In this document: positions 4,851-42,560 of the stretch, piece by piece
Numbering within the stretch: the first letter of the stretch is position 1
Layout: each line of letters starts with the position of its first letter
From: a virus
Virus record (IMG/VR): IMGVR_UViG_3300037184_000123
Coordinates: 1-44,537 of that record
Strand: one strand, 5' to 3'
Length of the DNA stretch: 44,537 nucleotides
Translations under genes and position numbers: made by a program
Notes under the pieces: generated by a model
Seen by the model: only the letters and a program-made list of their open reading frames with translations
The model's database searches: none
Told to the model about the DNA's origin: nothing

Positions 4851-7800
4851 ATGTCACGATCACGTTTACCCATCGATATTCAATTTCTATTAGAGTCTCT
4901 GACTGGAGAACCTATATCCAACTCGGCTGAGTATGAAGACAACCTAAAGAATCCTAATTACGACGATAACGAAGGCGAGTCTGGGAACACTCCTGATATT
5001 TATGGCAATCATAATGATGGATGGGTAAGTCCATATCATAATAATACATTGTTAGATGAAAGTCCAGATGGAGTAAGTTATAAAAAAGATGGTACAGATC
5101 GTTATTTGAATTGGAGTGACGACGACGCTCTTGCGTTTATTACAACCGGTAAAATAAGTCTCATAGGTAAAACGAAACATATGACGATATTAGAGGCTCT
5201 CGTAAATGATTACCGAGAAGGGAAACTTGATCTACCCGAGAATATATATTTTAGAAACCTACATAAGCTAGGAGTTGAAATTTCTAACGAAGATGCACTC
5301 AGAGAAGATTTATTTGGTCCTGTTAGCGGTCCTTTTAGAGATACCGCTATAGAAAATAATGGATGGGTAGGAATTCGTAGAATGAAAGGTGCATTAGTCG
5401 GAAGACTTTGGATCAAACGAGAAGTTATATCTTTTTGGAGTAAACAAGAAGAAGTGGTAGAACGGTGGGATTTTATAGAAAAAATGTTCAGTGATTGGAC
5501 AAGTACGTTGGGAAAATTGAATGATTACAATGTTGATTTCTTGAGATCATATTCTGATACGGAACTTATTCCAGCCAAGAAAGTGTCTTCTACTCGACAG
5601 AAAAGCACCGGATCTACGACTGCGGAGATAATTGCAAAAATATTGGATAAAGTAAGTGATATGAGTTCGTTAAGCGACGAACAGGTAAGAAAAATTCAAG
5701 ATAAAATCCATTTGTTAGATCCACAGGTTAAAGCTGACGTTATGAAGCTTATTCATCCAGACCTACCCAATAAAGCAGGTAAGATAGCAGCGGCGTTAAA
5801 GATGAGCACGGCTGAATTCAATAATTTAATGCATGTTGATGAGTCCACGTTAAACGAAGACCCAGATCGTGTAGAAACTCCACGTGGAAATGGTAAACCA
5901 TTAAATTTGCATTGGCTTAATATTGATGCCTATGCATTTATGGCGGGAGATCTTGTTAGTATAATCGGTAATAAAAAGAAACATGCTAATATGTTCTGGG
6001 CATTGGAGGAATCTTGTAAACAGCCTGATAAGATGATAGAGTTTTTTGAAAAGGCGGATATCGAGGTGTCCAGTGAAGAAGAATTAAAGGATGAGTTGTT
6101 TAAGAAAGTAGGACCATTCGCTAAAATTGCTTCTGGTAAGACTGGTAATGTACGTGAAATGAAAGATATTTTAGAGGGTAGAATATGGCTGAACAGTAAG
6201 GTAATCTCGTTTTGGAATACAAAAGAGACAGTTATAGAACATTGGAATTACATTGAGACTATGTTTCAATTCTTTACTTCTATTTTTGGAAACTTAAATG
6301 AGTACCGCGTGGACTTTATAGAACGAAAACCACAATTGGAGCCTTTGGCTTCTGCCGGGAAGATAAATTCTGTTAAAAGCAGCGATCCAAGTTTGTCAAC
6401 CGCAGAAATACTGGCAAAGATCCTCGATCATACCGGTGAACTTTATCGAATGTCTGATGAACAAATAAAACAGATTCAATCCAAGCTTCACCAACTCGAT
6501 CCTGAGACGAAATCGCAAATCATGAAGATTTTAGGTCCAAGATTGAAAAATAAATCTGGTGAAATGGCTGGCGCTCTTGGTATGAGTGCGGCAGAATTCA
6601 ATGATATGTGGCACGTGGATGAAAATGAATTAGATGAGAGTCCAGATTACGTTGGTGGAATACAACAGTTGAATAAACAAGATGACAGAGAATATTTAAA
6701 TTGGTGGAACGGACAGAACTGTGCGTTCTTTGCTTTTAAGAAATTTAGTTTTATCGGAGAAAAGAAAACTCACTTCGAGGTATTTACAGCTGTAAGAAAA
6801 ACAAGAGAAAACGGAGAACGTTCACTTCTTTGGTTTCGTGATCAAGGCGTAATGTTCTTTGGTGATCAGGAAGCTTTCTATAAAGATTTATATGAAGAGG
6901 GTGGAATATTATACGGCTATTTTGCGGCAAAAATAACACCTAGATATCATGATGATTATCCCGGAATGATATTGGGAAGAGCTTGGGTAGATAGGAACAT
7001 AATATCCTTCTGGGATACCCAGAAATTCGTTATATCTCACTGGGACCATGTGGTTGAAATGTTTCATGATGCCCGGTTTCTCGGAGACTTGGATAAGTAC
7101 AATATTGATTGGATAGAACGAGGATGTGATAAACCTTTCTCTACAGCTGAAAAAGTTTCTTCAAGTATTAAGTCTGTGTCACCGACTAGAGAGAATTATG
7201 TTGAGCGTGTTATTGAGATGCTAGAAAAAACATGTCTTCTCGATGTACTCACCGATGAACAGATAAAGAAAATAAGAGAAGTAATTCATATACTGGACCC
7301 ACAGGTTAAAGCAGAAATAATGAAGGATATGGGAGAGACCTTGAGTAATAAATCATCTGAGATTGCTGATAAACTTCATATGAGCGTGGCTGAATTCAAC
7401 AGTCTATGGCATATGGATGAAAGTAAATTGGATGAATCACCCGACACCATTGCTCCAGATAAATACGTCAAAGCCTCTGATAAAGCCGAGAAGCACGGTA
7501 TAAAAATTGGACATACTACATCGGACTGGAGAGACAATGATGCCGTTCCGTTTATTATTGATCGACAGAATAAGATGACAATGATCTCCCCGGATTTATG
7601 CAGTGCCCATGGAAAACTTGTTCATCCAGAGATGGGCGCACAAATCGTGGCATATAATCATGACCCAAACATATTCAATAAGTTTAAAGCCAGTAAATAT
7701 CCCGGATGGGGATTTGATCTAATGAAGGGACAGGAATTATATGGAGATGAAAGCGGTAAAGAAGTCGTTACAGGAGCAATTATTGTATTACAAGCGAAGT

Positions 7801-8588
7801 CTATAATCGAATTATGTAAATATCTAAAAAAGGTTCATTATGAAATTCCATTACATGGAGATATTCCACGAGATGACAAGAATTTCATATTAGGGAGAGT
7901 TTGGACAGATTCTAAAACTATTAGCTTCTGGGAGAAAAGGAAGGAAGTATTAGAATATTTCAATATAGTGGAAGAGCTGCTATTGGCGTTGAAATTGGAT
8001 AAGGCTCACATGCTTTATGATTTTATCGATGAAGATGAACTTCTTACATACGACGAGTTGACAACCAAAAAGTTTTCGAGTAAAGACCAAGAAGAGATCA
8101 AGCGGTTGATGGCAATCCAACATCTTGATCCAGAAGCCAAGAAGAAGCTTAATATGATGCTCGGAAATATACAACAAAAAGGTAATGATGGATTCGATTT
8201 TCAAGCTCAACGTGATGCAGAGATGCCCGCATTACAGGAAATAGTACGTGCAATTAACAAAGATCCCAAAGATAAGGCTATTAATTTATTCTGGAAATTA
8301 GCGCCGGATGAATCTCATTGGTCAATGGATATTTCAAGTGGTGCGGTTCACCGGTCAGATGCTATTCAGTTGTATAGTTTTCACGTCGATAAAGAATTTA
8401 GAGGAAAAGGTCTCGGTGAAAGAATCCTAACTATACTTTGTAAAGCCGCCGATAGATTTTGCGTTCCTATTGAGCTGGAGCCCGGTGGGAAAGATAGTGA
8501 AGCATATCGACTCGTTCCGTGGTATGAACGACATGGATTCAAATGGAAAAGCGGTTTTATGCGGCGGGAGCCTAATACTTCCATGTAA
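4851..8588 (+). CDS. 1245-residue tandem-repeat protein with C-terminal GNAT domain
   Basis: The protein contains four diverged repeats of about 260-300 residues. Each has a DESPD-like entry, a WxxxDAxxF segment, the signature GRxWxxxxxISFW (near residues 185, 443, 709 and 1015) and a following helix with VxxxW. The first three end in a helical module with DEQxxKI, LDPxxK and MSxAEFN (about residues 275-340, 533-598 and 800-865); the fourth keeps only a shortened form. Residues about 1134-1245 form a GNAT N-acetyltransferase domain with the acetyl-CoA loop RGKGLG (about 1184-1189) and a C-terminal WYERHGFKW. Similar single ESPD/GRxW/ISFW domains occur, to my knowledge, in uncharacterised large-phage proteins. 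The substrate is unknown. It stands alone between a terminator and a 217-base gap. Confidence 0.8.
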   Translation: MSRSRLPIDIQFLLESLTGEPISNSAEYEDNLKNPNYDDNEGESGNTPDIYGNHNDGWVSPYHNNTLLDESPDGVSYKKDGTDRYLNWSDDDALAFITTGKISLIGKTKHMTILEALVNDYREGKLDLPENIYFRNLHKLGVEISNEDALREDLFGPVSGPFRDTAIENNGWVGIRRMKGALVGRLWIKREVISFWSKQEEVVERWDFIEKMFSDWTSTLGKLNDYNVDFLRSYSDTELIPAKKVSSTRQKSTGSTTAEIIAKILDKVSDMSSLSDEQVRKIQDKIHLLDPQVKADVMKLIHPDLPNKAGKIAAALKMSTAEFNNLMHVDESTLNEDPDRVETPRGNGKPLNLHWLNIDAYAFMAGDLVSIIGNKKKHANMFWALEESCKQPDKMIEFFEKADIEVSSEEELKDELFKKVGPFAKIASGKTGNVREMKDILEGRIWLNSKVISFWNTKETVIEHWNYIETMFQFFTSIFGNLNEYRVDFIERKPQLEPLASAGKINSVKSSDPSLSTAEILAKILDHTGELYRMSDEQIKQIQSKLHQLDPETKSQIMKILGPRLKNKSGEMAGALGMSAAEFNDMWHVDENELDESPDYVGGIQQLNKQDDREYLNWWNGQNCAFFAFKKFSFIGEKKTHFEVFTAVRKTRENGERSLLWFRDQGVMFFGDQEAFYKDLYEEGGILYGYFAAKITPRYHDDYPGMILGRAWVDRNIISFWDTQKFVISHWDHVVEMFHDARFLGDLDKYNIDWIERGCDKPFSTAEKVSSSIKSVSPTRENYVERVIEMLEKTCLLDVLTDEQIKKIREVIHILDPQVKAEIMKDMGETLSNKSSEIADKLHMSVAEFNSLWHMDESKLDESPDTIAPDKYVKASDKAEKHGIKIGHTTSDWRDNDAVPFIIDRQNKMTMISPDLCSAHGKLVHPEMGAQIVAYNHDPNIFNKFKASKYPGWGFDLMKGQELYGDESGKEVVTGAIIVLQAKSIIELCKYLKKVHYEIPLHGDIPRDDKNFILGRVWTDSKTISFWEKRKEVLEYFNIVEELLLALKLDKAHMLYDFIDEDELLTYDELTTKKFSSKDQEEIKRLMAIQHLDPEAKKKLNMMLGNIQQKGNDGFDFQAQRDAEMPALQEIVRAINKDPKDKAINLFWKLAPDESHWSMDISSGAVHRSDAIQLYSFHVDKEFRGKGLGERILTILCKAADRFCVPIELEPGGKDSEAYRLVPWYERHGFKWKSGFMRREPNTSM

Positions 8589-12124: not shown

Positions 12125-13897
12125 ATGTCTAATCAAAGAATATCACAACTTCAGTATTTACCGTCTGCCAGTTTGGATGTACAGGATATTTTATCCGTAT
12201 TGGACGTGAGTTCCATGACCTCCCCAGCAGGGGAAGCCAAGACAACGACGATTGATGAATTCTGCAATTATATAAATTCCGCTGGATTAGTTAGAATGAA
12301 AAAGAACTATTTGGCATATCAATCGGCCAACGGACTTGTGTTTGATCCTTCGTGGATAGGACATACAGATAACGATAGGTGCTATGCTAAAACAGGTTCG
12401 TCGTTAGGAGTTAGTTTTTCTATCTTTCTTTGTGGATACGTTCCGCCTAGCTCTCCTATCGTAAACAGTGAACGAATATTATTCGGTGTTGGACCAAACA
12501 ATACCCCGGCTGAAAATGCTAATTCTGCTTATTTCGGAATGGATGGGTCTGATCTTATTGCATATGTTCAAGGAAATGGGTTAACTTCTACTCGAATGGT
12601 TATATCTGATTTCTTTCCAAATTTAAGTGGAAGAGTATTCTATCTCGCCTTGACCAGAGACTCCTCTGGAAATATAAATCTTTATAGCTACGGAAATCTA
12701 TACAGCAGTTCATCCGGTCCTACAGATCCTGTAGAAAATACTACAATCGTGATGGGAAACGGTGTAAATGGTGGACCAAATATTGGATGTACGATTTTCG
12801 AAGCACATATTTTTAACCGTGATATGAGTACGGCTGAAGTCGGTAAGATATTCTGGAGCGGTGTTGATTCATTCAACGGTAGTTTGATAAATTCTTATAT
12901 ACCAGCCAATCTCAATCCCGGTCCTACACAATGGCTTGATCGAGTAGGTGGATGTCACCTATTACTTCCAACCGGAGGAGCCAAGGCATCTGCTCCAGAT
13001 AATAGATTCTTATTGAATTTCTATGTAACTAGCAGTGGATATTTGGGTAATGGTTCTAATAGAGATATTCTGCCTGCTGGATACATACTTAAGTCGTGTA
13101 TTATTGAGTCGTCAACTCAACCAACAATGTCGATTGGAACGTCTGTTTTACAAACAGACAGTCGCGTCTGGTTAATGTCTTCCTCATATGATGTCAGTTC
13201 GCTCCATTTATTGTATAAGGGTAATGCAATGCCCGACCGAACTATATTTGCACAATTCCATGGATCTGGAGTTCCTTGTGCTATAACACTCGACGGATAT
13301 GTTATAAACAAATTCAATTTTAGTATACCTCCCATTCCTACTATAACACCTACTCCATCACCGACACCAACTCCTACCACCACACCGTCATATCCGGCAT
13401 TTACACCGACTCCAAGTACGACGACAACTGCAACTCCTACGCCAACCTCTACTCCTACGCCAACACCAACAACTGGTTTAACTCCAACCCCTACATCTAC
13501 GCCGACTTCTACACCAACTCCAACCCCTACTCCGACGCCAACCCCTACCCAGACGCCAACACCATCTGCACCACCATATGTTCCAATGGTTGTTCATATA
13601 GGTGATACACTGTCTTTCAGCGGACCAATTGATTATGCCATTTATAGCAGTCCCTTTGATATAACAGTTGACGGAGGTACTCCACCCTATTCTTTTGCGA
13701 TGACCCCTGTAGTAACATCTCCACATTTTGGATCAATATTTATTTCTTCAAGTGGAAGGACGGGTTCATTTAGATTCAATGGAGGATATGGATTCGCAGG
13801 ATCATATACAGCCGTCTATAAAGGACAGGTTTATGATAGTCTGGCCAATACAGCGACTTCCTCAAATACTATGACTGCCACAATGAATTTATCGTAA
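12125..13897 (+). CDS. Tail-fibre-like adhesin with LamG-type domain and Thr/Pro linker
   Basis: This 590-residue protein begins with a short conserved entry ([20 protein letters not shown]) shared with the gene at 13917. A beta-rich region (about residues 55-395) follows, with the look of a concanavalin A-like/LamG domain ([19 protein letters not shown] is the typical closing segment). Residues about 406-482 are a Thr/Pro linker of repeating TP and TPT units. The C-terminal part (about 485-590) is an Ig-like domain with DGGTPPYSF. The frame is open from 12080, but ATG 12125 matches the start of the paralogue. It is likely a virion surface or receptor-binding protein. Confidence 0.75.
13337..13572 (+). 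repeat. Degenerate tandem repeat encoding the Thr/Pro linker
   Basis: The stretch is made of diverged copies of a six-base unit of the type CCNACN, giving repeated Thr-Pro codons. Codon third positions vary, so it is not a pure microsatellite. A closely similar tract occurs at 15301-15552. Confidence 0.85.
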
Positions 13898-13905
13898 CAG
13901 AATAA

Positions 13906-13913
13906 TATTTATA
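13906..13913 (+). promoter_or_regulatory. Candidate late promoter element TATTTATA
   Basis: TATTTATA lies three bases before ATG 13917, in a 19-base gap between two adhesin genes. Confidence 0.45.
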
Positions 13914-13916
13914 CAT

Positions 13917-15155
13917 ATGCTCAACGAAAGAAATACCCAATTACGAAGACTCACCGAATTAGAACTAGTACCCGGAGATCTGATTCCTGTGGTAGATAAA
14001 AATTCTCCCACCAGTCCTACGGGAGAGACTAAGTATATAACCGCCCTTGATCTTGCAAATTACATCATTGAGAATGATTTAATAAATCTTAGTACGGGTG
14101 ATCGTGGACTACAAACCGCGAATGGGTTGTCATTTGATGAAGGACATATAGCTATTACAAATAATGATCGTTGCTACGGAGGTATGATCAATCTTGGACG
14201 TACTTATTCATTATTTGTGAAGGGATATATTTCTCCGGACATGGCGAATGTAACAAATGATCTCCGAGTTTTATTTGGAGTTGGCGATAGTCCGTCAATG
14301 GCAAATTCCTCTAATTCAGCGTATATTGGTATTCAACTTAACGGTGGAGTAAACGACTTGGTTGTCTATGTACAGGGAAGTGTTGTTATAACTTACCCCG
14401 GCTACTTTTCCAATTCTTCAGTGAATTACCGAGCATTCTATCTAGGTCTGACAAAGGATTTATCTGGATTGGTAACATTATACATTAATGGAGAAGCTTA
14501 CGCTTCGGCGGCGGCACCAACCACTCCAATAAATAGTTCATACGTTACAATGGGCAATGGAAGAACCAATGACTACAACGTAAAAACAGTAATATACGAA
14601 GGTCACGTATACAATTATGCATTGAATGCTAACCAAGTCGATGATTTGTTCTATAGAGGTGTTGATACAAACGATACCGGGCTTGTTGCCTCATATAATT
14701 CAGTAACTCTTAATGCGGGACCATCACAGTGGTTGGACTCTATCGGTTCTAACCATTTATTACTTCCTACTACTGGTGCTTTGGCTACTGGACCAAGTAA
14801 ACGATTTGTTCTAAGTTTTTATGCGGCTGCTAGTGGATATCTTGGTGATGGATCGGTTAGAGATATTCTTCCTGAGAGATATGTCTTGACTTCATGTGTT
14901 TTGGAGTCTTCTGGAAAACCACTTGTTTCGATTGGATCTTCTCCTACCCCATCATATCCCGGTAGTAGTGGAACGGGATCTTTTTGGGACAATCGTGTTT
15001 CTATCGTTAGTGCTTCTTACGGAGTGAATCCCTTGAAATTGGTTCCGCTTGGTATTGCTCATAAAGATAGAACGATCTATGTGGAGTTTTATTCAGGAGC
15101 AGCTCCATGCTCAATTACATTTGATGGATATATCAGAGATTCATACGACTTGTAA
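13917..15155 (+). CDS. LamG-type adhesin, paralogue of the N-terminal part of the preceding gene
   Basis: This 412-residue protein aligns by eye along its whole length with residues 1 to about 400 of the previous gene. It has the same entry ([20 protein letters not shown]), the same LamG-like core, [20 protein letters not shown] as the closing segment, and a matching last strand ([10 protein letters not shown] against [10 protein letters not shown]). It stops exactly where the other protein enters its Thr/Pro linker. The linker and a C-terminal domain follow in a separate gene four bases downstream. It is probably a tail surface protein that binds a host glycan or protein. Confidence 0.75.
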
Positions 15156-15159
15156 TAAC

Positions 15160-15735
15160 ATGTTTAATACTATTCCAGATCATGGTTTACCAGAAGGAGA
15201 AGCGTTCGGAATATCAGGATCTATCTTTAGATCAGATGTTGACGGTAGAACTTTCAGAAAGAATACTGATGATACAACAAATCGTGGATGGGTCGAAATT
15301 GACCCAACACCAACTACGACTGCTACACCTACGCCAACCGCGACGTTGATTATTCCATCTGCTACTCCAAGACCTACCCCGACACCGACACCGACACCAA
15401 CTCCTACTACTACCCCGACACCTACTCCGACACCAAGTGTAACACCTACGCCATCACCAACTCCGGGATTAACTCCAACAGCTACACCTACGCCCTCGCC
15501 AACATCGGTTACACCTACACCTACATTAACTCCAGCTCCAACTCCCTCGCCACTCTGTGGTAATTATCATCTTACTGGGAATCCTACGATTTATGTGACA
15601 TGGGTAAATTGTAATGGTTTACCTAACTATCTAAATCAAACTACGGCTGGTCCATGGGACGCTGGTATAATTTGTGCAAATATCGGAAGCGTTGAAGTGC
15701 ATGTTGGAAATGCTGTGATGGTTGGTTCGTGTTAA
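15160..15735 (+). CDS. Fibre-like protein with neck motif, Thr/Pro linker and C-terminal domain
   Basis: This 191-residue protein starts four bases after the previous stop. Residues 1-50 contain [15 protein letters not shown] and NRGWVEI, a neck-like motif seen in phage fibre proteins and again in the gene at 43870. Residues about 50-130 are Thr/Pro repeats. The last 60 residues (from LCGNYHLTG) are a small beta-rich domain with four Cys. Together with the gene at 13917 it reproduces the architecture of the gene at 12125, in two pieces. An open frame extends back to 15049 but would overlap the previous gene by 107 bases, so ATG 15160 is preferred. Confidence 0.7.
15301..15552 (+). repeat. Degenerate tandem repeat encoding the second Thr/Pro linker
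   Basis: The tract uses the same CCNACN-type six-base unit as 13337-13572, with many identical stretches such as CCTACTCCGACACC-like runs. The two tracts lie about 1.7 kb apart in direct orientation and could recombine. Confidence 0.85.
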
Positions 15736-15785
15736 ATTTCCAAAGTCGTTCATATATATGATAGTAACAACATTCATATATACCC

Positions 15786-17087
15786 ATGAAAAAGGATAAA
15801 ATTTTCATCCAGATCGCGGCATATCGTGATCCTCAGTTAGTAATAACAGTTAAAGATTGTATAGCACGCGCCAAACATCCTGAAAACCTCGTGTTTTGTA
15901 TCGCATGGCAACATGCCGAAAATGAAAGTATTGATGATATCAAATATTTTCCTAATGTAAAGATTATAGATATTCCATACTTACAAAGTCGTGGAGCATG
16001 TTGGGCGAGAAATCAGATTCAACAACGATTTGATGAAGAAGAATATACTCTTCAACTTGATTCTCATCATAGATTCGTTCAAGATTGGGATGAGATTGTT
16101 ATAGGAATGTATAATCAGTTGAAGACATTAGGATACGCTAAACCTCTTCTAACCGGATATATGCCTTCATTCGACCCAGAAAACGATCCAGCTGGCCGAG
16201 TTCAAACTCCATGGAAAATGGACTTCGATAGGTTTATTCCAGAAGGCGCTGTATTCTTTTTACCTGCTTCTATCGATGATTGGAAAACTCGTGATTGTCC
16301 GGTTCCATCACGCTTTTATTCAGCTCACTTTTGTTTTACAAGTGGACAATTTGTGAAGGAAGTTCCTCATGATCCAGAATATTATTTTCATGGAGAGGAG
16401 ATCTCCGTTGGCGTTCGTGCTTTCACACATGGATATGACTTATTTCATCCTCACCGTTTGGTAGTGTGGCATGAGTACACTCGTAAAGGCCGTAATAAAC
16501 ATTGGGACGATCACACCGGCCAGAAGAAGCGAGAATTGATAGATGGGAAAGATTGGGGTCAACGTAATGCTGAATGTCACAGACGCAATCGGTGCTTGTT
16601 CTCGATGGACGGAGAATCTTATGATTCGATCAATTGGGGTCCATATGGATTCGGAACAAAACGAACACTACGAGATTATGAAAAGTATTCTGGATTGAAT
16701 TTCGGTAGACGTGCTGTACAGAAACATACCACCGATAGGAAATATCCACCTAATCCGTGGTGGGAATATAAGACTGAACAGGAGTGGAATGAATCGTTTC
16801 TGGCGGTATTTAAACACTGTATTGATCTACAAGTAAGTCAATTTCCGGAAAACGATTATCAGTTCTGGTGTGTCTCGTTTGAAAAGGTAGATGGAACGGT
16901 TGTTTTCCGCAAAGACGTGGACGAGAAAGAATCTGCCAATCTATTGGCTTCTGCAAGGAACCCTAATGGAGATAAATACATTAAACTATGGAGAGAGTTT
17001 AATTGTGAGGGAAAACCCCATCACTGGGTAGTTTGGCCTTATAGTAAATCAAAAGGTTGGGGAGAGCGAATTGTTGGAAACCTATGA
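15786..17087 (+). CDS. Glycosyltransferase, GlcNAc-transferase (PF11397-like) family
   Basis: This 433-residue enzyme starts with IFIQIAAYRDPQL (residues 6-18), the hallmark of the family that includes the Skp1 hydroxyproline GlcNAc-transferase of Dictyostelium. It is followed by SRGACWARNQIQQ (68-80) and LQLDSHHRF, whose D92-S-H94 is the DxD-like metal and sugar-nucleotide site. The GT-A fold continues to about residue 270. The last 90 residues are a separate tail. The acceptor is unknown; the neighbouring Thr/Pro-rich adhesins are obvious candidates. Its stop overlaps the next start (ATGA at 17084). Confidence 0.85.
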   Translation: MKKDKIFIQIAAYRDPQLVITVKDCIARAKHPENLVFCIAWQHAENESIDDIKYFPNVKIIDIPYLQSRGACWARNQIQQRFDEEEYTLQLDSHHRFVQDWDEIVIGMYNQLKTLGYAKPLLTGYMPSFDPENDPAGRVQTPWKMDFDRFIPEGAVFFLPASIDDWKTRDCPVPSRFYSAHFCFTSGQFVKEVPHDPEYYFHGEEISVGVRAFTHGYDLFHPHRLVVWHEYTRKGRNKHWDDHTGQKKRELIDGKDWGQRNAECHRRNRCLFSMDGESYDSINWGPYGFGTKRTLRDYEKYSGLNFGRRAVQKHTTDRKYPPNPWWEYKTEQEWNESFLAVFKHCIDLQVSQFPENDYQFWCVSFEKVDGTVVFRKDVDEKESANLLASARNPNGDKYIKLWREFNCEGKPHHWVVWPYSKSKGWGERIVGNL

Positions 17088-17797
17088 AGTTCTGTTTTGC
17101 TACTTTCGTCTTTGGGGAAAAATACTATCCGGTAGTTAATCGTTTTATAGATGATATATCTAAATCCGAATTCAAGCCTACGCTAGTTGTCGTTACTGAT
17201 AAACTGGATATGATTCGTTTAGAGAGATTCGTCAAAGTTTTCGATATCAGATCACTCAATCCAAAGTATGTCGATTATGCGACTAATTACTATGGATTTG
17301 ATTTCTCCGTAGAGAGATATGCTATCCACGCTGCTCGTAAACTTGGTTATGAATGGATAGTATTAACTAATGCAGAAATGCGAGTTGATAGGGACTTCAA
17401 TGAAAGTTCAATTACAAACTGCTTCAAGGAAAATTCTATTCTTAGCCCGTCAGTGTTCAATTTCGAAGAACAAGTAACGTCTCCCAGTAAACTTGGACTG
17501 CGCTTGCTCGAATATGAAAAATACTTCGGTGTTCAAGTCGATAAGAAAAAATTGACTAATATGCCGGAAGACTGTATAGAATTTTTTCATATGTCTCCAT
17601 CTAGATACGATGCATTTCTTGTTGACTGGGATCGATGTATTTGTTATAAATATAGTAAACCGCTCTCCAACGTTCCTATAGGAAATATAGATGAGATATG
17701 TTTCTGCGCAGTGAAAAATGGAATAGACATCGGAAATAACGTTGACAAGTCTTGTAGAGTTATTCATGCTCAACATGATAGATGGTACGCGAAATAA
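17084..17797 (+). CDS. Putative GT-A type glycosyltransferase
   Basis: This 237-residue protein starts at the ATG overlapping the previous stop. Its first residues (FCFATFVFGEKYYPVVNRFI) and a following VVVTDKLD fit the nucleotide-binding start of GT-A enzymes. YEWIVLTNAEMRVDRDF (about residues 87-103) sits where the DxD region is expected, although no clear DxD is present. Its position between two better-supported glycosyltransferases strengthens the call. The gene ends two bases before the next start, so the three genes form one operon. The donor and acceptor cannot be told. Confidence 0.6.
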   Translation: MKFCFATFVFGEKYYPVVNRFIDDISKSEFKPTLVVVTDKLDMIRLERFVKVFDIRSLNPKYVDYATNYYGFDFSVERYAIHAARKLGYEWIVLTNAEMRVDRDFNESSITNCFKENSILSPSVFNFEEQVTSPSKLGLRLLEYEKYFGVQVDKKKLTNMPEDCIEFFHMSPSRYDAFLVDWDRCICYKYSKPLSNVPIGNIDEICFCAVKNGIDIGNNVDKSCRVIHAQHDRWYAK

Positions 17798-17798
17798 T

Positions 17799-19496
17799 AT
17801 GAGTACAACACTAGTAACAGCTCTTTTTGATTTAAAACGAGGGGAAATGAACACCAGTTTTAATAGACCGTTTTCTATCTACATAGACAATTTTGAAAAA
17901 TTACTGTCGGCATGCAAATCCATTCCTATGCTTGTTTATATAGAGTCTTACCTCGAACAAACGGTAAAGGACGCAAGAAGAGGATCTGTAGGGACCGATA
18001 TCAGAATTAGAGGAAAAGAGGACATTCTTACGTGGTTTCCATTTTATGATGATGTTAAAAAAATAAGAACTAATCCGAAGTGGTTCGGTCAAGCCGGATG
18101 GCTTTCTGATTCTACACAAGCTAAATTGGATATGTACAATCCTCTTGTAATGAGCAAGATGTTTATGTTACATGATGCGATATGTTATAATCCATTTGAT
18201 ACCGAGAATTATTGTTGGATTGATGCAGGACTGACTCAAACAGTTCATCCCGGTTACTTTAGTCACGACATGGTAATAGAAAAAATGGAACCATTGCTCA
18301 AGAAACTTCTTTTTGTATGTTATCCGTATATTGGAGCCAATGAAATTCATGGATTTGTGCGGGATGAGATGCATCGACTGGCTGGAGTAAAGTATGTTGA
18401 TCGAGTCGCTCGCGGAGGATTCTTTGGTGGCAATAAAGATATTATCAAAGAAGTGAATGGAACGTATTATGGTCTTCTTCAAGATACATTAAGTCGTGGT
18501 TTCATGGGGACCGAAGAAAGTATATTTACTTTATTGACTTATCAGATGGCAGAAAAGATAAATGTTGAAATGATCGATGGTAATGGCCTAATGAGCACAT
18601 TTTTTGAACGAGTAAAGAAGATGCCTATACCAAAGAACGAGACGATCATATTAAAAGATAGTGTGTCAGCGAACGTAGAGTATTATCAATCTGAGGAAGA
18701 AGTCGAGATGAATAAGAAGGGGACGGGAACAAATTTATACGTTGTGACGTTTAATTCGCCTCCCCAACTCCAACTACTGTTTGATTCGGTAGAAGCGTCC
18801 AATCCAGAATTACTGAAGGTAAAGGGAAGATTTTTGATCGATAATAGCACCGATACATCGACTATTCCTGATTATGATGCAATAGCTTCCAAATACGGGT
18901 TTAAAGTGATTAGAATGGGTAATGTGGGCATCTGTGGAGCAAGACAGTGGGCTGCACAACATTTCCATGAAAGCGATTCCAAATATATTGTGTGGTTCGA
19001 GGATGATATGTTGATGGTAAAAGATAAATCGGAGCATTGTAAAAATGGATTAAATATGCACGTTGATAATTGGTTGGACAAGTGTATCAAGATCGTAGAA
19101 AAGGAAAAACTTGATTTTTTGAAAATTTCTTTCTCCGAATTTTTTGGTGATCATCATAAGCAATGGGCATGGCATAACGTGCCGGAAAATATAAGAAAGA
19201 AATATTTTCCGGATGGAACGTGTAGAATGAAGTGGAAAGAGTCAGGATGTATCGATGGACTTAGTTATCTGATCGGAGAAGTCTATTATTCAAATTGGCC
19301 TAGTGTTATGACAAAGGCCGGAAATTATAAAGTATTTTTAGAAACTAAATTCGCTTCTCCGTTTGAACAAACTATCATGAGTCAAGCATTCCAAACAATG
19401 AAAAAAGGTAGGCTTCGGAGTGGGGTATTGATGTCATCGCTCGTGAATCATAATAGAGTCTATCACTACAAAAGAGAGATTCGTAAAGAGTGTTGA
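17799..19496 (+). CDS. Two-domain glycosyltransferase: HtrL/YibB-like plus GT2-like
   Basis: This 565-residue protein is a fusion. Residues 1 to about 290 match the HtrL/YibB family pattern: TLVTALFDLKRGE at the start, YNPLVMSKMFMLHDA and CWIDAGL (near residue 139), then FFGGNKDII (near 207) and a later EES. Residues about 310-565 look like a GT-A/GT2 transferase: LYVVTFNSPPQLQLLF, RFLIDNST, NVGICGARQWA and WFEDDM with the metal-binding acidic cluster near residue 400. ATG 17799 is used because the longer frame from 17742 overlaps the previous gene. A two-active-site enzyme could add two sugars in succession. Confidence 0.75.
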   Translation: MSTTLVTALFDLKRGEMNTSFNRPFSIYIDNFEKLLSACKSIPMLVYIESYLEQTVKDARRGSVGTDIRIRGKEDILTWFPFYDDVKKIRTNPKWFGQAGWLSDSTQAKLDMYNPLVMSKMFMLHDAICYNPFDTENYCWIDAGLTQTVHPGYFSHDMVIEKMEPLLKKLLFVCYPYIGANEIHGFVRDEMHRLAGVKYVDRVARGGFFGGNKDIIKEVNGTYYGLLQDTLSRGFMGTEESIFTLLTYQMAEKINVEMIDGNGLMSTFFERVKKMPIPKNETIILKDSVSANVEYYQSEEEVEMNKKGTGTNLYVVTFNSPPQLQLLFDSVEASNPELLKVKGRFLIDNSTDTSTIPDYDAIASKYGFKVIRMGNVGICGARQWAAQHFHESDSKYIVWFEDDMLMVKDKSEHCKNGLNMHVDNWLDKCIKIVEKEKLDFLKISFSEFFGDHHKQWAWHNVPENIRKKYFPDGTCRMKWKESGCIDGLSYLIGEVYYSNWPSVMTKAGNYKVFLETKFASPFEQTIMSQAFQTMKKGRLRSGVLMSSLVNHNRVYHYKREIRKEC

Positions 19497-20675: not shown

Positions 20676-20752
20676 CGTCTCCTGAGAAAGACGATGGTGG
20701 AGGGTTGCATTCGTTCCACCCCTAAGCAACCCCGAGCAATCGGGGTTGTTTT
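20676..20752 (+). terminator. Terminator with GCAA tetraloop and competing upstream hairpins
   Basis: The terminator stem CAACCCCGA (20727-20735) pairs with TCGGGGTTG (20740-20748) around a GCAA loop and is followed by TTTT. Upstream, CGTCT/AGACG (20676-20693) and GGTGGA/TCCACC (20696-20720) can form hairpins. GGGTTGC (20702-20708) can pair with GCAACCC (20726-20732), which would break the terminator. The gene at 19993 ends before it. Confidence 0.75.
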
Positions 20753-20767
20753 ATTGTATGGAGCTGA

Positions 20768-20775
20768 TATTTATA
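20768..20775 (+). promoter_or_regulatory. Candidate late promoter element TATTTATA
   Basis: TATTTATA lies after the terminator and five bases before ATG 20781. Confidence 0.5.
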
Positions 20776-20780
20776 AAGAC

Positions 20781-21377
20781 ATGAAGTTAAAGGATATAAT
20801 AACAGAGATAACTGGCCAACCATCTAATACGTTCCAGATGTATCGTGGTGGACAACGTTGGACACGAATACCAACGGAGATAATTGGTAGTAAAAAAGGT
20901 AGGTATGAGGCAGGTATCGGAATTTATACAACAAATAGCTATAATACAGCACGTCGTTACGCAGGAGGTTCTAGAGTTGTTCAGCTTGTAACAGTAGATA
21001 ATAATTTTAAAGATTTAAATAAAGTGGATATATCAGTTACGGAACTAATTGATTTCGTTAAAAAGACATCTAGAATGAGAAACAAAAACTGTATTATAGA
21101 TGATATAATGAATTATTCTAATAGGGTGAAGAAATCTATTATTCCACTTGAAACACTGAATAACTTAATCGTTAACTATGAAGCAGGAGCCGGGAGTGTG
21201 GGTGTTGATGTGTCTAATTTTTTTGTAAGTAAAGGAGTGGATGCTAATATTGTGCAACAATATGGCCAAGAATTTTGGTTAGTTGTATTCAATCCAAAGA
21301 TCATAAGGGCAGTATCCGTCGTTGATCCGAAAAAGGTTGACAGTGATTTTGAATTCGTGTTACCCCAGATAAAATAA
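20781..21377 (+). CDS. Putative ADP-ribosyltransferase-like protein
   Basis: This 198-residue protein has features seen in ADP-ribosyltransferase folds: an early Arg in MYRGGQRW (residues 19-26), then GIGIYTTNSYNTARRYAGG (about 44-62), which has the strand-turn-helix shape of the second ART motif, and VVQLVTVDN after it. A third conserved acidic residue would be expected near the C terminus; candidates such as YGQEFWLVVF (about residue 160) exist but I cannot prove it. The frame can be read from 20694, but that runs through the terminator. If real, it would modify a host protein, as phage Alt and Mod do. Confidence 0.4.
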   Translation: MKLKDIITEITGQPSNTFQMYRGGQRWTRIPTEIIGSKKGRYEAGIGIYTTNSYNTARRYAGGSRVVQLVTVDNNFKDLNKVDISVTELIDFVKKTSRMRNKNCIIDDIMNYSNRVKKSIIPLETLNNLIVNYEAGAGSVGVDVSNFFVSKGVDANIVQQYGQEFWLVVFNPKIIRAVSVVDPKKVDSDFEFVLPQIK

Positions 21378-21436: not shown

Positions 21437-21580
21437 ATGGGAAGAAAATTAACATACATTACACCGGAGGAACAGAAGAATGCAAGAAAACTTAGAAACA
21501 AGCGATTCTATGACAAACATAGAGATGAACTCAACAGGAAGTCTATGCAACGATATTGGAAAAAAATTAGAAAAAAATAA
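21437..21580 (+). pseudogene. N-terminal fragment of a homing endonuclease, in a different frame
   Basis: The 47-residue frame starts at ATG 21437 (MGRKLTYITPEEQKNARK) and is highly basic (RNKRFYDKHRDELNRK, MQRYWKKIRKK). It stops in a run of seven A just before the GIY-YIG domain opens in another frame. Removing one A from 21571-21577 would join it to NNISTGIIYKAI, giving a protein with a basic N-terminal region and a GIY-YIG domain. It may be a true separate small gene, a frameshifted start, or an assembly error in a homopolymer. Confidence 0.45.
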
Positions 21581-22394
21581 TATAAGTACTGGAATTATTT
21601 ACAAAGCTATCTGTTTGGTAAATAATAAAATTTATATTGGTGTTACATCTCGAAAATTGAATGTGCGAATCAATGAACATGTTAAATCGTCGAAAAAAGA
21701 TCCAAAATTCTTGTTTAATAGAGCTATAAAAAAATATGGAAAAGAAAAATTTATATTTAGTGAAATTGATGCATATAATACAATAGAGGAGAGAGACAAC
21801 AAAGAAATAGAATACATAGCAGAATATAATTCATTTTATTTAACTGGACATGGGTATAATATGACGTTAGGTGGAGATGGGAGCACTGGCCACGTAAAAT
21901 CTCCAGAAGCTATAGAGAAAATTAGGCAGGCAAGAGCCAAACAAATATTTAGTCCAGAAACACGAGCACTCTGGTCAAAAAATAGAACAGGAAGAAAACT
22001 AACGATAGAACAACGTAAGTATATGTCGAAAAGGATGATTGAAACTGGATGTCATAAAAAAACCGATGAACACAAACAGAAGCTGCGAAAAGCCAGTTCG
22101 GGTAGAATATATTCCCCGGAAACATGTTTAAAAAAATCACGGAGTATGATGGGAAAAAACAAGAAAGTAATTTCCCAAGATAATATGGATTTGATACAAT
22201 GTTTATATAGAGATATGGGACTACATAAAGTTCGTTCAGAATTAGTCAATAGAGGTATATTTATAAGTCCGGGTAGAATAAAAAGAAATTTACAGTCAAT
22301 TAACATGTATAGAACTCCAATCGAAGCAAAATTAAGAATGATTTCATCGATGACTGGACGAAAAAGAGGAAAGTATAAAAAACATGCTACTTAA
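21480..22394 (+). CDS. GIY-YIG homing endonuclease with NUMOD3-like tail
   Basis: The 304-residue reading contains the GIY-YIG nuclease core: GIIYKA (residues 38-43), KIYIGVTSRKL (50-60), an Arg-containing INEH segment and the catalytic Glu around residues 109-111 (NKEIEYIAEYN), then YNMTLGGDG. The tail has repeated NUMOD3-like units (SPEAIEKIRQAR, SPETRALWSKNRTGRK, SPETCLKKSRSMMGKN) and a helix-turn-helix-like end (HKVRSELVNRGIFISPGRIK). The first 36 residues overlap the basic fragment in another frame and are probably not native. It lies between unrelated genes and its last codons overlap the next start, typical for a mobile free-standing endonuclease. Confidence 0.85.
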   Translation: MQENLETSDSMTNIEMNSTGSLCNDIGKKLEKNNISTGIIYKAICLVNNKIYIGVTSRKLNVRINEHVKSSKKDPKFLFNRAIKKYGKEKFIFSEIDAYNTIEERDNKEIEYIAEYNSFYLTGHGYNMTLGGDGSTGHVKSPEAIEKIRQARAKQIFSPETRALWSKNRTGRKLTIEQRKYMSKRMIETGCHKKTDEHKQKLRKASSGRIYSPETCLKKSRSMMGKNKKVISQDNMDLIQCLYRDMGLHKVRSELVNRGIFISPGRIKRNLQSINMYRTPIEAKLRMISSMTGRKRGKYKKHAT

Positions 22395-23694
22395 GTATAT
22401 ATTAAACGAAATAAGTAAGGATGCAATTGCATTAGAATATCTATCTGATCTAGTTAAATCTGGTCCATTTAAAAATAAGGCATTTCTTGCTGGAGGTAGC
22501 CCGCGTGATATGCAGCTTGGTCTCTCGCCTCACGACTTGGATGTAGTAATAAAAGGAGATATAAACGCAGGTATAGATTTTGCTAAATGGGCAACTGAAG
22601 AAATCGGAAGAAGAACAGGAAAGAAAATCCATGCGCCTGTTATTTTTCCAACCTTTGGAACCGCGAAATTTACTTTGAGTGGAGTGAATTATAAAGGATA
22701 CGATTTAAGTGATGTAGACATCGAGTGTGTGGCTCCGAGAAAAGAAAAATATACTTCTGGAAATAGAAAACCAGAAGTATCTTCCGGTGAACTGAAAGAT
22801 GACGTTTTTCGAAGAGATTTTTTGGTTAACAGTCTTCTCTACGATCTTACATCGGGGGAGACACTTGATCTAACCGGCATGGGAAAGGATGATATTAAAA
22901 AGGGAATAATAAGAACCCCATTAGATCCCAATATTACATTTAAAGAAGATCCACTGAGAATATTAAGATGTATGAGATTTTCGGCTAAATACAATTGGAA
23001 GCTCCCAATGTTTATGATTAGAGCGGTGAAAAAGAATGCTCCTCAACTGAAGAATATTTCCCGAGAACGCATCCAAGTAGAAATCGATAAAATTCTGTTA
23101 ACTGATAGAGCCACTCAATCAATTAGACTCATGAAGATATTAGGTTTAATTCCTTATGTATTTTCAGATCTAGTAGATAAACCGAAAGAAGAATATACAT
23201 TACTCAAGTTCCTTCCTAAAGACATTCCGCTCCGTTTAGCTGGCATTTTTTCCGAAGTTGGGTCCGATATTGCAGAAAAGGATCTACGAGAAACCAAATA
23301 TGATTTGGACACCATAAAAACCGTATCAATGATTCTTGACCATTTTCATAAGTTATTAGATAATAACGCTTCTTCTGATGAATCCGTAAGAGATGAAATA
23401 GATATTTTGGGGAAGGATAAGTACAATGTGGTTCTTAGTTTTGCAAAAGGATATGCTTCTTACAAGGGAGTGAACTTAGCTGCTGATGAATTGTCATTGA
23501 AATCGACAGAGCAATCCCAATATATGAAACAACACCCACTTCCAATTGATGGTCAATGCCTTATAGATCTGGGTATAAAACCCGGCCCGGTGTTCAAAAC
23601 TCTACTTGACTTAGTACGGAGAGTGTATATCAAGAATCCAGAAACACCTAAAGAAACATATCTCTCTGTTATAAAAAAGAATATGCAAAAGTAA
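22384..23694 (+). CDS. cca: tRNA nucleotidyltransferase / poly(A) polymerase family
   Basis: This 436-residue protein is of the class II nucleotidyltransferase family. AGGSPRD (36-42) is the helical turn that binds the NTP, DLDVV (51-55) carries the two catalytic acids, RRDFLVNSL (about 146-154) is the flexible-loop and body signature, and DPLRILRCMRFSAKY (near 189-203) is the neck helix. Enzymes of this family add CCA to tRNA 3' ends or A tails to RNA; which one applies cannot be told by eye. The start overlaps the homing endonuclease stop by 11 bases. Confidence 0.85.
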   Translation: MLLKYILNEISKDAIALEYLSDLVKSGPFKNKAFLAGGSPRDMQLGLSPHDLDVVIKGDINAGIDFAKWATEEIGRRTGKKIHAPVIFPTFGTAKFTLSGVNYKGYDLSDVDIECVAPRKEKYTSGNRKPEVSSGELKDDVFRRDFLVNSLLYDLTSGETLDLTGMGKDDIKKGIIRTPLDPNITFKEDPLRILRCMRFSAKYNWKLPMFMIRAVKKNAPQLKNISRERIQVEIDKILLTDRATQSIRLMKILGLIPYVFSDLVDKPKEEYTLLKFLPKDIPLRLAGIFSEVGSDIAEKDLRETKYDLDTIKTVSMILDHFHKLLDNNASSDESVRDEIDILGKDKYNVVLSFAKGYASYKGVNLAADELSLKSTEQSQYMKQHPLPIDGQCLIDLGIKPGPVFKTLLDLVRRVYIKNPETPKETYLSVIKKNMQK

Positions 23695-24862: not shown

Positions 24863-24967
24863 ATGAAAATATCTAAATCGTTATCGGGTATTAAAATAGG
24901 TCCGTTGTCAGAAGAACGTCGTATGAGAAAATCTCAATCGATGTTAGGTAAGAAACAAAAATTATGA
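24863..24967 (+). CDS. 34-residue ORF resembling two NUMOD3 motifs
   Basis: The short frame encodes a basic peptide with ISKSLSGIK and SEERRMRKSQSMLGKK. These match the NUMOD3 pattern (S-x-E/E-T-R-x-K-x-S-x-S-x-x-G-K) that forms the DNA-binding tail of many homing endonucleases, including the one at 21480. It is therefore probably the remnant of a lost endonuclease, or a small DNA-binding protein derived from one. Its stop overlaps the sigma gene start (ATGA at 24964), so it sits inside that operon. Confidence 0.45.
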   Translation: MKISKSLSGIKIGPLSEERRMRKSQSMLGKKQKL

Positions 24968-25830
24968 AGAAGATAAAACGTTCCAAACAGACAAAAAGAA
25001 AGACTAAAGTTAATAAGGTCAAAGTAAAACGTAAAGTTCGAGTGATTAAAACGGGCGTAGTTACAATAAAGAAAATAAAACGTAGAAAGCGTAAAGAGAA
25101 AATTGTTACAGTGTTGGAGATCGGTGATCCCAAACCACCGTCTAATATGTATTTTACGCAAGATACGGAAGACGGAATCGTCGCATATAACAAAGCAACG
25201 GATGCGGCAGAGAAAGACAGAATCTATAATGAGAAGATTCAACATGCATTTGAAAAAATTGCTGAAAATATCTACAATAGATTCAAGTTTAGTTACGCAG
25301 ATGTTCCTCCAATAGAGGTCCAAAAACAAGCTATTTCTCACATGGTTTCTAATATCGACAAGTATGAACCGGGAAAGGGAAAGGCATATAGTTATTTTAG
25401 TATCGTAGCAAAACATTGGTTTATTCTGGATAATAACAACACTTATAGAAGATTTAAACGGCACGTTGAAATATGTGAGCATCCGGGAGACTCAGGTGAA
25501 TTTGTGGTAGAACCAGAACACAGTAAGAAAGATAACGAGACCAGAGAATTTATAAAACTAATGGTAGAATTCTGGGATAAGAATGTCGGAAAATACTTCA
25601 ATAAAGATAGAGATGTAAAGATCGCAAACGCTGTAATTGAAATATTTCGTAATTCAGACCGTATTGATGTGTTTAATAAAAAAGCTCTTTACCTATATAT
25701 TAGAGAAATAGCAGATTGTCAAACCCAACATATTACTAAGGTTATAAATAAAATGAAATTTGCTCAGAAAAATATAACAAACGAATATCAAGAAAAGGGA
25801 ACAGTTACGGGTGATGGTATTTACGTTTAA
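24964..25830 (+). CDS. gp55-like late-transcription sigma factor
   Basis: This 288-residue protein begins with about 45 very basic residues (KKIKRSKQTKRKTKVNK and on). From about residue 58 it follows the T4 gp55 family: YFTQDTEDGIVAYNKATD, IQHAFEKIAENIYNRFKF, ISHMVSNIDKYEPGKGKAY, then SYFSIVAKHWFILDNNNTYR, corresponding to the sigma region 2-like core and following helices. In T4, gp55 directs host RNA polymerase to late promoters with the sliding clamp. Here it stands just before the large structural module. The basic N-terminal extension is longer than in T4 gp55 and may bind DNA. ATG 24964 overlaps the preceding stop. Confidence 0.8.
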   Translation: MKKIKRSKQTKRKTKVNKVKVKRKVRVIKTGVVTIKKIKRRKRKEKIVTVLEIGDPKPPSNMYFTQDTEDGIVAYNKATDAAEKDRIYNEKIQHAFEKIAENIYNRFKFSYADVPPIEVQKQAISHMVSNIDKYEPGKGKAYSYFSIVAKHWFILDNNNTYRRFKRHVEICEHPGDSGEFVVEPEHSKKDNETREFIKLMVEFWDKNVGKYFNKDRDVKIANAVIEIFRNSDRIDVFNKKALYLYIREIADCQTQHITKVINKMKFAQKNITNEYQEKGTVTGDGIYV

Positions 25831-29087: not shown

Positions 29088-29486
29088 ATGTCAACTACTC
29101 CACAACCAATTGGAATAACTTTACCTCTTATAGATGGTAAGTCTGGTTATTTCAATCAAAGTTTCAACATTGTGGATCAGATCAATACGAATATCATTAT
29201 GTTATTTCAGACAAAACCGGGAGAAAGACGAATGAACCCCAGCTTTGGTTCTAGATTATGGACAGCATTATTTGAAATAATAGATGACGATCAAGGGCAG
29301 ATTATACAGAGTATAGTAACACAAGATTTAGCTAAATGGATTCCATATGTCAATGTTAAACAGGTGAATATTACTAACAATCCCGATGGAAATATTGTTG
29401 GCGTCTCTGTTATCTATACGGCTAATAGTGCAGGAATAACTTCTCCACAGTCGGTTACTATTCCGGTACAACAACAATCTCTATGA
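29088..29486 (+). CDS. gp25-like baseplate wedge protein
   Basis: This 132-residue protein carries the gp25/GpW domain. It has LIDGKSGYFNQSFNIVDQIN, then the signature FQTKPGERRMNPSFGSRLW followed by a helix, and a strand pair (VKQVNITNNPDGNIVGVSV). T4 gp25 joins the inner wedge of the baseplate and nucleates the sheath. Length agrees with the family. The stop overlaps the start of the gp6-like gene (ATGA), the standard order in contractile tails. Confidence 0.9.
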   Translation: MSTTPQPIGITLPLIDGKSGYFNQSFNIVDQINTNIIMLFQTKPGERRMNPSFGSRLWTALFEIIDDDQGQIIQSIVTQDLAKWIPYVNVKQVNITNNPDGNIVGVSVIYTANSAGITSPQSVTIPVQQQSL

Positions 29487-42300: not shown

Positions 42301-42560
42301 AGTCTACGAGACATTATGTGGCAGATATAGAAAAATACATCAGTCAATTTACCGGAGATAATGTATTTAATGTAGATCCGATGTTCTTTGGGTATCAAGC
42401 ATCGTCTTCATTCGATCCAACCGGATCATATCTGGCTCCATATGTAACAACTATAGGACTGTATGATAACAATGAACTTGTTGGAGTGGCTAAGTTAGGC
42501 AGACCAATAAAAAACTTAATTGATTGGCCAATCAATTTTATTGTTCGTTTTGATACCTAA
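39348..42560 (+). CDS. Baseplate protein with seven FG-GAP repeats and dockerin-like calcium loops
   Basis: This 1070-residue protein keeps the scaffold of the previous gene at its ends and carries two added modules. Seven FG-GAP-type units (xxFGxxV) occur near residues 246, 327, 386, 480, 556, 643 and 724, each followed by LAVGAP-like strands, the number needed for a seven-bladed beta-propeller like integrin alpha subunits. After EFNFSTNPT (about 843) comes DVNRDGVFDIKD (about 862) and then DIDGNGVIDMRD (about 949), two EF-hand/dockerin loops with the acidic ligand positions, spaced wider than in classical dockerins. The end, YVTTIGLYDNNELVGVAKL, matches the paralogue. It is likely an exposed tail protein. 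Confidence 0.75.
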   Translation: MIKQFSSGDTVVRPFKTFKHWEIQSVDMNGVDQYGRSTYFSSSCEVNIGKNISSIFYPTGSSYYNSSVEPVNPSGKYYRNVFNLTDSMFYRYSNNPMEKFGIEYIDSDPVTGNKEVRNIGDRIVTCRIKENLWGEKIVPNSIDITDNSNVNETYRILDDGATNLFVSGSLFIRDIRLGAVSNYSSFLKWNPLATEFYIIVDNVTQSISTQKAKSLMSMGVEVSYTEGSGSWVLDNSFTHSFFDPSNERFGQSVSTWGNYILVGSPMDSMNLSPEKQGYAAIYKIEHNHPRLLRRFYSIQSQNALTTEYGNLIEFNGSFFGLESSSSFDDSFGYSVCVRDNFMAIGAPTGSVCYASASENGFVYVYDRFKGGCDNWGQISILTGSSVNDRFGHSVSLSNDILAVGAPGVSGSTGAVYIFRRKRYMDSTYPCQNIQTSSLWPATNECGLPDSSSLFSTPSFVSGNFTWIPEAILTSSVASTSDQFGWVLEASDNKVLVGHRKISGPGFATLFTCNYTSASLNECPTASWSERTFYANDSLANLIDSQYKYATPVSLSYNGFGYTVSINGNNMAVGSHYDTGLIPYGLTSSLIFGAVYFYNYQNAECASSSTDINYFVAQGSNTSSVDYEFVLTQKIFGELDHTSSNRFGREISIDGNFVAISSDHSTKYHQVDYISGSFILDGLNYQSTGSEDSVLGRVSIYNQHPDLSWNLYHEIHRNKDSNQPYNIFGRSVSMASDFLAVGAPIYNYVGPSSSYDLVSNHSLQMSGNFSPAYSGSVFIYELDDFKTNPLIGNIFYKNGYAVITNTESKFESIFTGTGSRGFDIKYQGTHTIFEHEYLVSVSPGEFNFSTNPTALVKNALLFDVNRDGVFDIKDLNLIMRYINNQKFYSTVIYYHQGIPMETKGWWKHSLLTEAGDVLLQEQTSVLLASMEFTVDDYNYIKNNLVDTGLLDIDGNGVIDMRDGAMLTQYYTDTLTPQSLLTLIDGKSTRHYVADIEKYISQFTGDNVFNVDPMFFGYQASSSFDPTGSYLAPYVTTIGLYDNNELVGVAKLGRPIKNLIDWPINFIVRFDT

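Follow-up and report, generated by a model that had tools for sequence, protein, structure and literature searches.

A phage cassette with a GT60-type transferase as a candidate mucin-type O-glycosylation system for Thr/Pro-rich adhesins

Enzymes of glycosyltransferase family 60 (GT60) transfer N-acetylglucosamine (GlcNAc) to hydroxyproline of the Skp1 protein, and alpha-GlcNAc to threonine (Thr) of Trypanosoma cruzi mucins (PMC8724618, PMC3769586). Glycosylation of phage-particle proteins is known in few cases, and the enzymes and sites involved are mostly unmapped. In mycobacteriophages, phage-encoded transferases glycosylate structural proteins, the targets being the C-termini of capsid and tail tube subunits (Freeman et al. 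2023, as cited in PMC12619734). For the virions of Xanthomonas phage XacN1, PMC5852040 reports at least two glycoproteins, which its authors suggested to be products of phage-encoded enzymes. Here we describe a gene cassette that combines elements of these systems. It lies at positions 12125-19496 of the IMG/VR virus record IMGVR_UViG_3300037184_000123, whose full 44,537 nucleotides are referred to below as the window. In the cassette, three adhesin-type genes precede the three transferase genes GT1, GT2 and GT3, all on the plus strand; it is fairly probable that it provides a cytosolic system with which the phage attaches mucin-type O-glycans to its own adhesins rich in Thr and proline (Pro). 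Baseplate wedge genes of the gp25 and gp6 types at 29088-31441 mark the 44.5-kb window as part of the genome of a contractile-tailed phage. This phage is probably a large one; relatives with the same cassette sit in contigs or genomes of up to 385 kb.

The GT60-type enzyme and its proposed acceptors

GT1 (15786-17087, plus strand) encodes a predicted PF11397/GT60-type polypeptide N-acetylhexosaminyltransferase and is the proposed initiating enzyme of the system. The first-pass annotation, made from the sequence alone, had called this product PF11397-like, and a Pfam profile search bears this out far above the threshold (E 4.7e-71, 240.5 bits against a cut-off of 21); the protein also belongs to phrog_24687 (E 1e-165). 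The motif D92-S93-H94, a metal site of the DXD/DXH type, is invariant in 26 relatives. The AlphaFold model (mean confidence, pLDDT, 85) adopts the GT-A fold, and the 29 best entries in a structural comparison with VIA-align are all polypeptide N-acetylgalactosamine (GalNAc) transferases, with Z scores of 18.6-22.8 over ~259-283 residues. Several of these structures were solved with mucin peptides, the next-ranked entry reaches a Z of 17.4, and polypeptide transferases rank above polysaccharide enzymes throughout. A common fold alone is no proof of function, and when solved structures were searched by sequence with GT1 and GT3, nothing meaningful was returned.

GT1 thus shares its Pfam family with the mucin-initiating polypeptide alpha-GlcNAc-transferases of T. 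cruzi and Dictyostelium and with the Skp1 enzyme Gnt1. As in the Skp1-type enzymes, a membrane anchor is not needed, and the Thr-rich mucin-like acceptor of the T. cruzi enzymes corresponds to the one proposed here (PMC3769586). Unlike the known GT60 enzymes, GT1 is phage-encoded, extends by ~120 aa at the C-terminus past the Pfam match, shares its operon with an HtrL/GT2 fusion, and has no hydroxylase partner that a search for PF13640 could detect. The animal polypeptide GalNAc-transferases (GT27, for example GalNAc-T2), which provide the best structural matches and act on mucin-type acceptors, differ from GT1 in that only 10-16% of residues are identical and no lectin domain was recognised in GT1.

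The proposed O-glycan acceptors are two mucin-like linkers located just upstream. Linker 1 (13313-13591, plus strand) comprises 93 aa with 36 Thr, 31 Pro, 8 serine (Ser) and 23 TP dipeptides, and linker 2 (15289-15564, plus strand) comprises 92 aa with 33 Thr, 30 Pro, 6 Ser and 23 TP dipeptides. The longest Ser/Thr/Pro-rich run far exceeds the maximum in 300 shuffles of the same protein, both for linker 1 (93 against 37) and for linker 2 (92 against 55). Both linkers use the full set of Thr and Pro codons, four each; because synonymous codons are mixed in this way, they are protein-level repeats, and an origin by DNA slippage was ruled out. The window holds the arrangement typical of mucin-type systems, a dense proposed acceptor domain of Thr/Ser and Pro beside a proposed initiating enzyme.

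Linker 1 belongs to adhesin 1 (12125-13897, plus strand), which has a virion-type N-terminal leader, a concanavalin-like LamG_3 domain (~12509-12841; E 2e-5, slightly below the Pfam cut-off) and a C-terminal domain without an assigned fold. Linker 2 is part of adhesin 3 (15160-15735, plus strand), a short protein with a Cys-containing C-terminal domain, whose likely start is the ATG at 15160 (the mechanical list of open reading frames gives a TTG at 15049). Adhesin 2 (13917-15155, plus strand; 412 aa), which separates them, is a LamG_3 paralogue of adhesin 1 without a Thr/Pro linker. The two linkers noted earlier ahead of the transferase operon are thus both present, with the correction that they occur in the first and third reading frames only.

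The remaining transferases are arranged directly behind GT1. GT2 (17084-17797, plus strand; likely start ATG 17084), the changeable middle gene, is a proposed elongating enzyme. It has no Pfam match at E 1, and its AlphaFold model (pLDDT 82) shows a GT-A fold with the GT6 alpha-1,3-galactosyl-/GalNAc-transferases as best Foldseek matches, so that its likeness to CAZy GT6 is at the fold level only. A pattern scan of viral contigs for close relatives of GT2 found none. GT3 (17799-19496, plus strand), the conserved distal partner of GT1, joins an N-terminal HtrL_YibB domain (PF09612, 42.8 bits against a cut-off of 24.1) to a Glycos_transf_2 domain of the GT2 family. The GT-A character of the second protein and the HtrL/GT2 fusion of the third, both proposed beforehand, are thereby confirmed. 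GT1 and GT2 share an ATGA overlap, and a gap of 1 nt separates GT2 from GT3, which is consistent with an operon.

Recurrence in viral and bacterial genomes

The association between the enzyme family and Thr/Pro repeats was assessed in two directions. In the reverse test, viral contigs of at least 20 kb were picked by a (TP)6 DNA pattern alone and then searched for PF11397, with control contigs drawn by arbitrary 14-mers. PF11397 was present in 12 of 50 (TP)6 contigs compared with 0 of 69 random contigs (Fisher p 1.3e-5, an indicative value, since the contigs are not phylogenetically independent), and the difference persisted among contigs of at least 80 kb (7/9 against 0/19). Glycos_transf_2 (PF00535) was only weakly enriched (15/50 (TP)6 contigs against 6/43 random, p 0.054), so the link to PF11397 is specific, and a generic glycosyltransferase cause was set aside. 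In the forward direction, 21 of 33 records carrying GT1 relatives contained an exact (TP)4 coding pattern once or more, compared with 0 of 26 random viral contigs of at least 20 kb. Within the window's GT1 clade (at least 64% identity), a Thr/Pro repeat lies within ~1 kb of GT1 in all 14 loci with at least 3 kb of upstream sequence; in more distant relatives, such repeats are often found elsewhere in the genome.

The anatomy of the cassette is also conserved. Across 50 non-redundant loci, a GT3-type gene comes after GT1 in nearly every case (in a few, before it), usually with one to seven genes between them that differ from phage to phage. Pfam analysis of 128 such middle genes identified GT10 fucosyltransferases, GT25, GT34, GT17, GT7, PLOD-type and RXYLT1-type transferases, as well as FkbM and rhamnosyl O-methyltransferases, carbamoyltransferases, a sulfotransferase and a pyruvyltransferase. 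This layout is like that of a glycan-assembly locus in which the ends are fixed and the elongation and capping steps can be exchanged. In three Myxococcales loci (L427, L457 and L461), GT1 and GT3-type domains are fused in a single polypeptide of ~1080-1210 aa, which argues that the two enzymes act in one pathway.

The closest experimental evidence comes from the isolate XacN1. Its ORF334 is 49% identical to GT1 and its ORF330 43% identical to GT3, whereas a carbamoyltransferase and other genes replace GT2 in the cassette. At least eight Thr/Pro-rich proteins are encoded in the parts of the genome read. There is also a very long ORF325 that carries a (TP)4 site; it follows immediately on the baseplate wedge genes and is close to the cassette. 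ORF328 and ORF334 are the only glycosyltransferases named in the XacN1 paper (PMC5852040).

The GT1 family is present in cellular genomes as well. A Thr/Pro-rich gene directly adjoins the GT1 homologue in Jiulongibacter, Saprospiraceae, Vicinamibacterales, Gemmatimonadota and Sphingomonas; some of the metagenome-assembled contigs among them may be phage. In the 4.5-Mb Jiulongibacter genome, the sole (TP)4 site, at 769,946, falls inside the GT1 locus (759,911-777,149). The GT1 homologue of Azospirillum is located within a contractile injection cluster (locus L447, 7995-16899) comprising Pvc16, a sheath protein with a Thr/Pro insert, a gp19 tail tube and VgrG. In Burkholderiales (loci within L414-L451), a VgrG gene of the type VI secretion system (T6SS) lies ~4-6 kb downstream of the GT1 homologue in 12 loci. 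The C-terminal tails of these GT1-linked VgrGs consist of tandem repeats with a species-specific unit (PT, PPPTE, PPPSE, PEPST, PDET and others), and all units keep Pro together with Ser or Thr. Such a tandem tail was found in 8/8 GT1-linked VgrGs and in 0/15 of the other readable VgrGs of the same eight genomes, with tandem-repetition scores of 6-45 against 0-2; a score of Pro/Ser-Thr density did not separate the two groups (6-20 against 0-7). As these VgrGs are orthologues, they count as one evolutionary case. The unit changes freely while the composition stays, and this is the pattern expected of glycan acceptors. The GT1-linked VgrG is possibly a glycosylated T6SS spike. Taken together, PF11397-Thr/Pro co-occurrence, the 14 clade loci and the recurrence in bacteria and injection systems lend comparative support to the initial proposal that the phage uses these transferases to glycosylate Thr/Pro stalks of its own.

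Other genes accompany the bacterial homologues. An RHS-repeat protein follows GT1 in the Burkholderiales loci L423 and L425. In L438, L442, L448, L456 and L462 (Alphaproteobacteria and an Eremiobacterota metagenome-assembled genome), a conserved large protein ends between a few and ~80 bases before the GT1 homologue, and in L438 and L442 this protein has an Rv2525c-like glycoside hydrolase domain in addition to Thr/Pro repeats.

Neighbouring genes and a candidate late-promoter motif

The motif ATATTTAT occurs at 13905-13912 (plus strand), 12 nt before adhesin 2, and is common to the starts of several other window genes. Of the 16 copies on the plus strand, eight are found 12-30 nt ahead of a gene, the genes concerned starting at 4851, 13917, 28662, 31518, 37523, 39348, 42595 and 43870; ~3.7 copies would be expected in all, and the minus strand holds four in all. 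This distribution makes ATATTTAT a candidate late-promoter element. A late promoter shared by GT1 itself was considered and rejected, as only an AT-rich site with one mismatch is present there, which was not used as evidence. Predicted sigma-70 promoters and terminators showed no excess over shuffles.

One of the genes preceded by the motif (39348-42560) encodes a protein of 1070 aa, likely a further adhesin, in which FG-GAP repeats and a weak match of the dockerin type were seen. Another, at 4851-8588, encodes a 1245-aa protein with a GNAT-type acetyltransferase match at its C-terminus and no PHROG match. The reading frames at 21480-22394 and 24964-25830 flank a gene for a CCA-adding-type nucleotidyltransferase (22384-23694, PF01743), and the product of 21480-22394, at least, resembles a GIY-YIG homing endonuclease when judged by eye. 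A weak ART-PolyVal (ADP-ribosyltransferase) match was obtained at 20694-21377 (E 0.11). A pattern scan of viral contigs for close relatives of a 1539-aa protein found none.

Proposed mechanism, alternatives and meaning

In the proposed mechanism, GT1 would add the first N-acetylhexosamine to hydroxyl groups of Thr, perhaps also Ser, in the linkers of the proteins encoded at 12125-13897 and 15160-15735. This sugar would most likely be alpha-GlcNAc or a similar residue taken from a host uridine diphosphate (UDP) sugar, with modification taking place late in infection. GT3, with its two putative transferase domains, and GT2 would then lengthen the chain. Exchange of the middle genes, which in relatives encode fucosyl-, galactosyl-, methyl-, carbamoyl-, sulfo- and pyruvyl-transferases, would let each phage dress one type of stalk in a glycan of its own. 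Such a dense sugar layer would keep the stalks stretched out and protect them against proteases and against being recognised by the host or in the environment, in line with the stiffening and protection that had been suggested as a purpose at the outset. A similar kind of linker is found in actinobacterial cellulases, whose Pro/Thr linkers are O-glycosylated and thereby protease-resistant; their glycans come from lipid-linked mannosyltransferases of the secreting cell, unlike those expected from a GT60 enzyme. The way the outer sugars change looks like the outcome of an arms race or of contact between sugars and lectins.

Several points weigh against this reading. The linker-free adhesin 2 stands between the two linker-bearing adhesins, GT1 is not preceded by a perfect match to ATATTTAT, and the HtrL_YibB family is not known to have an activity. 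The Thr/Pro linkers are proposed acceptors only, and it is inferred which residue is modified, with which sugars, in what order, when and to what end. In the genomic comparisons, PF11397 is missing from 38 of the 50 Thr/Pro contigs, many of them short fragments or from other types of phage, and a strict (TP)4 pattern is missing from 12 of the 33 GT1 records, many of them fragments. Much of the close synteny comes from one clade and is not independent. In addition, the main text of the XacN1 paper neither names the glycosylated proteins nor ties them to Thr/Pro proteins (PMC5852040).

Among the alternatives, remodelling of the host surface polysaccharide (O-antigen or capsule) against superinfection, with the proximity of the adhesins due to module clustering, is disfavoured as improbable; modification of the host surface had been raised in the first-pass annotation. 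Surface remodelling is the role so far proposed for the glycosyltransferase clusters of jumbo phages (PMC7824862), and the changeable middle genes resemble those of polysaccharide loci. However, Pfam matches to a lipid-carrier transferase, flippase, polymerase or GtrA/GtrB were found neither in the three window transferase genes nor among the 25 of 31 families listed for the 128 middle genes, and the combination that characterises gtrABC O-antigen conversion, a GtrA flippase and a GtrB bactoprenol transferase beside a specific transferase, was likewise not found by Pfam in the cassette. The fold of GT1 is polypeptide-transferase-like, with polysaccharide transferases ranking clearly lower, and remodelling of the surface would predict neither the specific co-occurrence with Thr/Pro repeats nor the association with VgrG tails in Burkholderiales.

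A comparably small chance is given to the glycosylation of other virion proteins, such as capsid or tail tube, with the linkers acting as bare flexible spacers. This would follow the known precedents, in which capsid and tail tube subunits are modified (cited in PMC12619734), and would accommodate the Thr/Pro linkers of the 38 contigs without PF11397. It leaves unexplained the specific association of PF11397 with Thr/Pro repeats, as well as the link in capsid-free T6SS and other injection systems and in Bacteroidota. The target proposed here, the Thr/Pro adhesin stalk, differs accordingly from that of the mycobacteriophage enzymes.

Somewhat less likely still is a Skp1-like route, in which a hydroxylase would first act on linker prolines and GT1 would then glycosylate the resulting hydroxyprolines. 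In its favour, the hydroxyproline GlcNAc-transferase of Skp1 is a PF11397 member, Pro makes up a third of the linkers, and the window's genome is incomplete. A search for the 2-oxoglutarate oxygenase family PF13640 in 24 GT1-carrying records gave two matches; the family is absent from the complete genomes of XacN1 (385 kb) and RAS14 (320 kb) and from several 230-297-kb contigs holding GT1 and Thr/Pro proteins, PF13640 being the one oxygenase family searched. XacN1 does carry an annotated AlkB-type DNA-repair dioxygenase. The VgrG tail units vary, yet always keep Ser/Thr along with Pro. As a general mechanism, the hydroxyproline route is not supported, because few GT1 records, and neither complete genome, contain PF13640, the one family covered; GT60 enzymes also modify Thr directly (PMC3769586, PMC8724618). 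With PF13640 this rare, direct modification of Thr (or Ser) is the simpler reading, and hydroxyproline seems not to be needed.

Finally, chance or hitch-hiking of adhesins and cassette in a shared hypervariable tail module, with no enzymatic relation, is very unlikely: tail modules of large phages do collect many accessory genes and part of the data comes from one clade, but the association with PF11397 holds against random contigs and in large contigs, generic GT2 domains are only weakly enriched, and the pattern recurs in Bacteroidota, Alphaproteobacteria, Burkholderiales and Acidobacteriota-type genomes.

Both phage virion glycosylation and GT60-type mucin initiation are already known as kinds. 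A literature search, with most subscription journals outside its reach, found nothing that ties PF11397 to phages, or GT60 to Thr/Pro phage proteins or VgrG tails. No description was found in the accessible literature of their union on Thr/Pro adhesin stalks, of a cassette with fixed ends and a changeable middle, or of the link with bacterial injection machines. A broader proposal, held tentatively and at slightly less than even confidence, is that prokaryotic GT60-type enzymes serve a widespread mucin-type O-glycosylation of phage virions and of phage-tail-derived injection machines (T6SS spikes and extracellular contractile systems), in which a fixed initiator, often with an HtrL/GT2 partner, and an exchangeable capping set would build a particle-specific coat on Thr/Pro or Pro-Ser/Thr stalks.

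The finding names an initiating enzyme family, a likely acceptor in the Thr/Pro adhesin stalks, a conserved partner and a changeable capping set. XacN1, whose virion glycoproteins are reported and unexplained, is an isolate in which the idea is directly testable. If true, mucin-type O-glycosylation would be used by phages and phage-derived injection machines, and the HtrL_YibB family would gain a functional setting. The suggested changeable sugar coat on adhesins would bear on the meeting of phage and host and on phage recognition.

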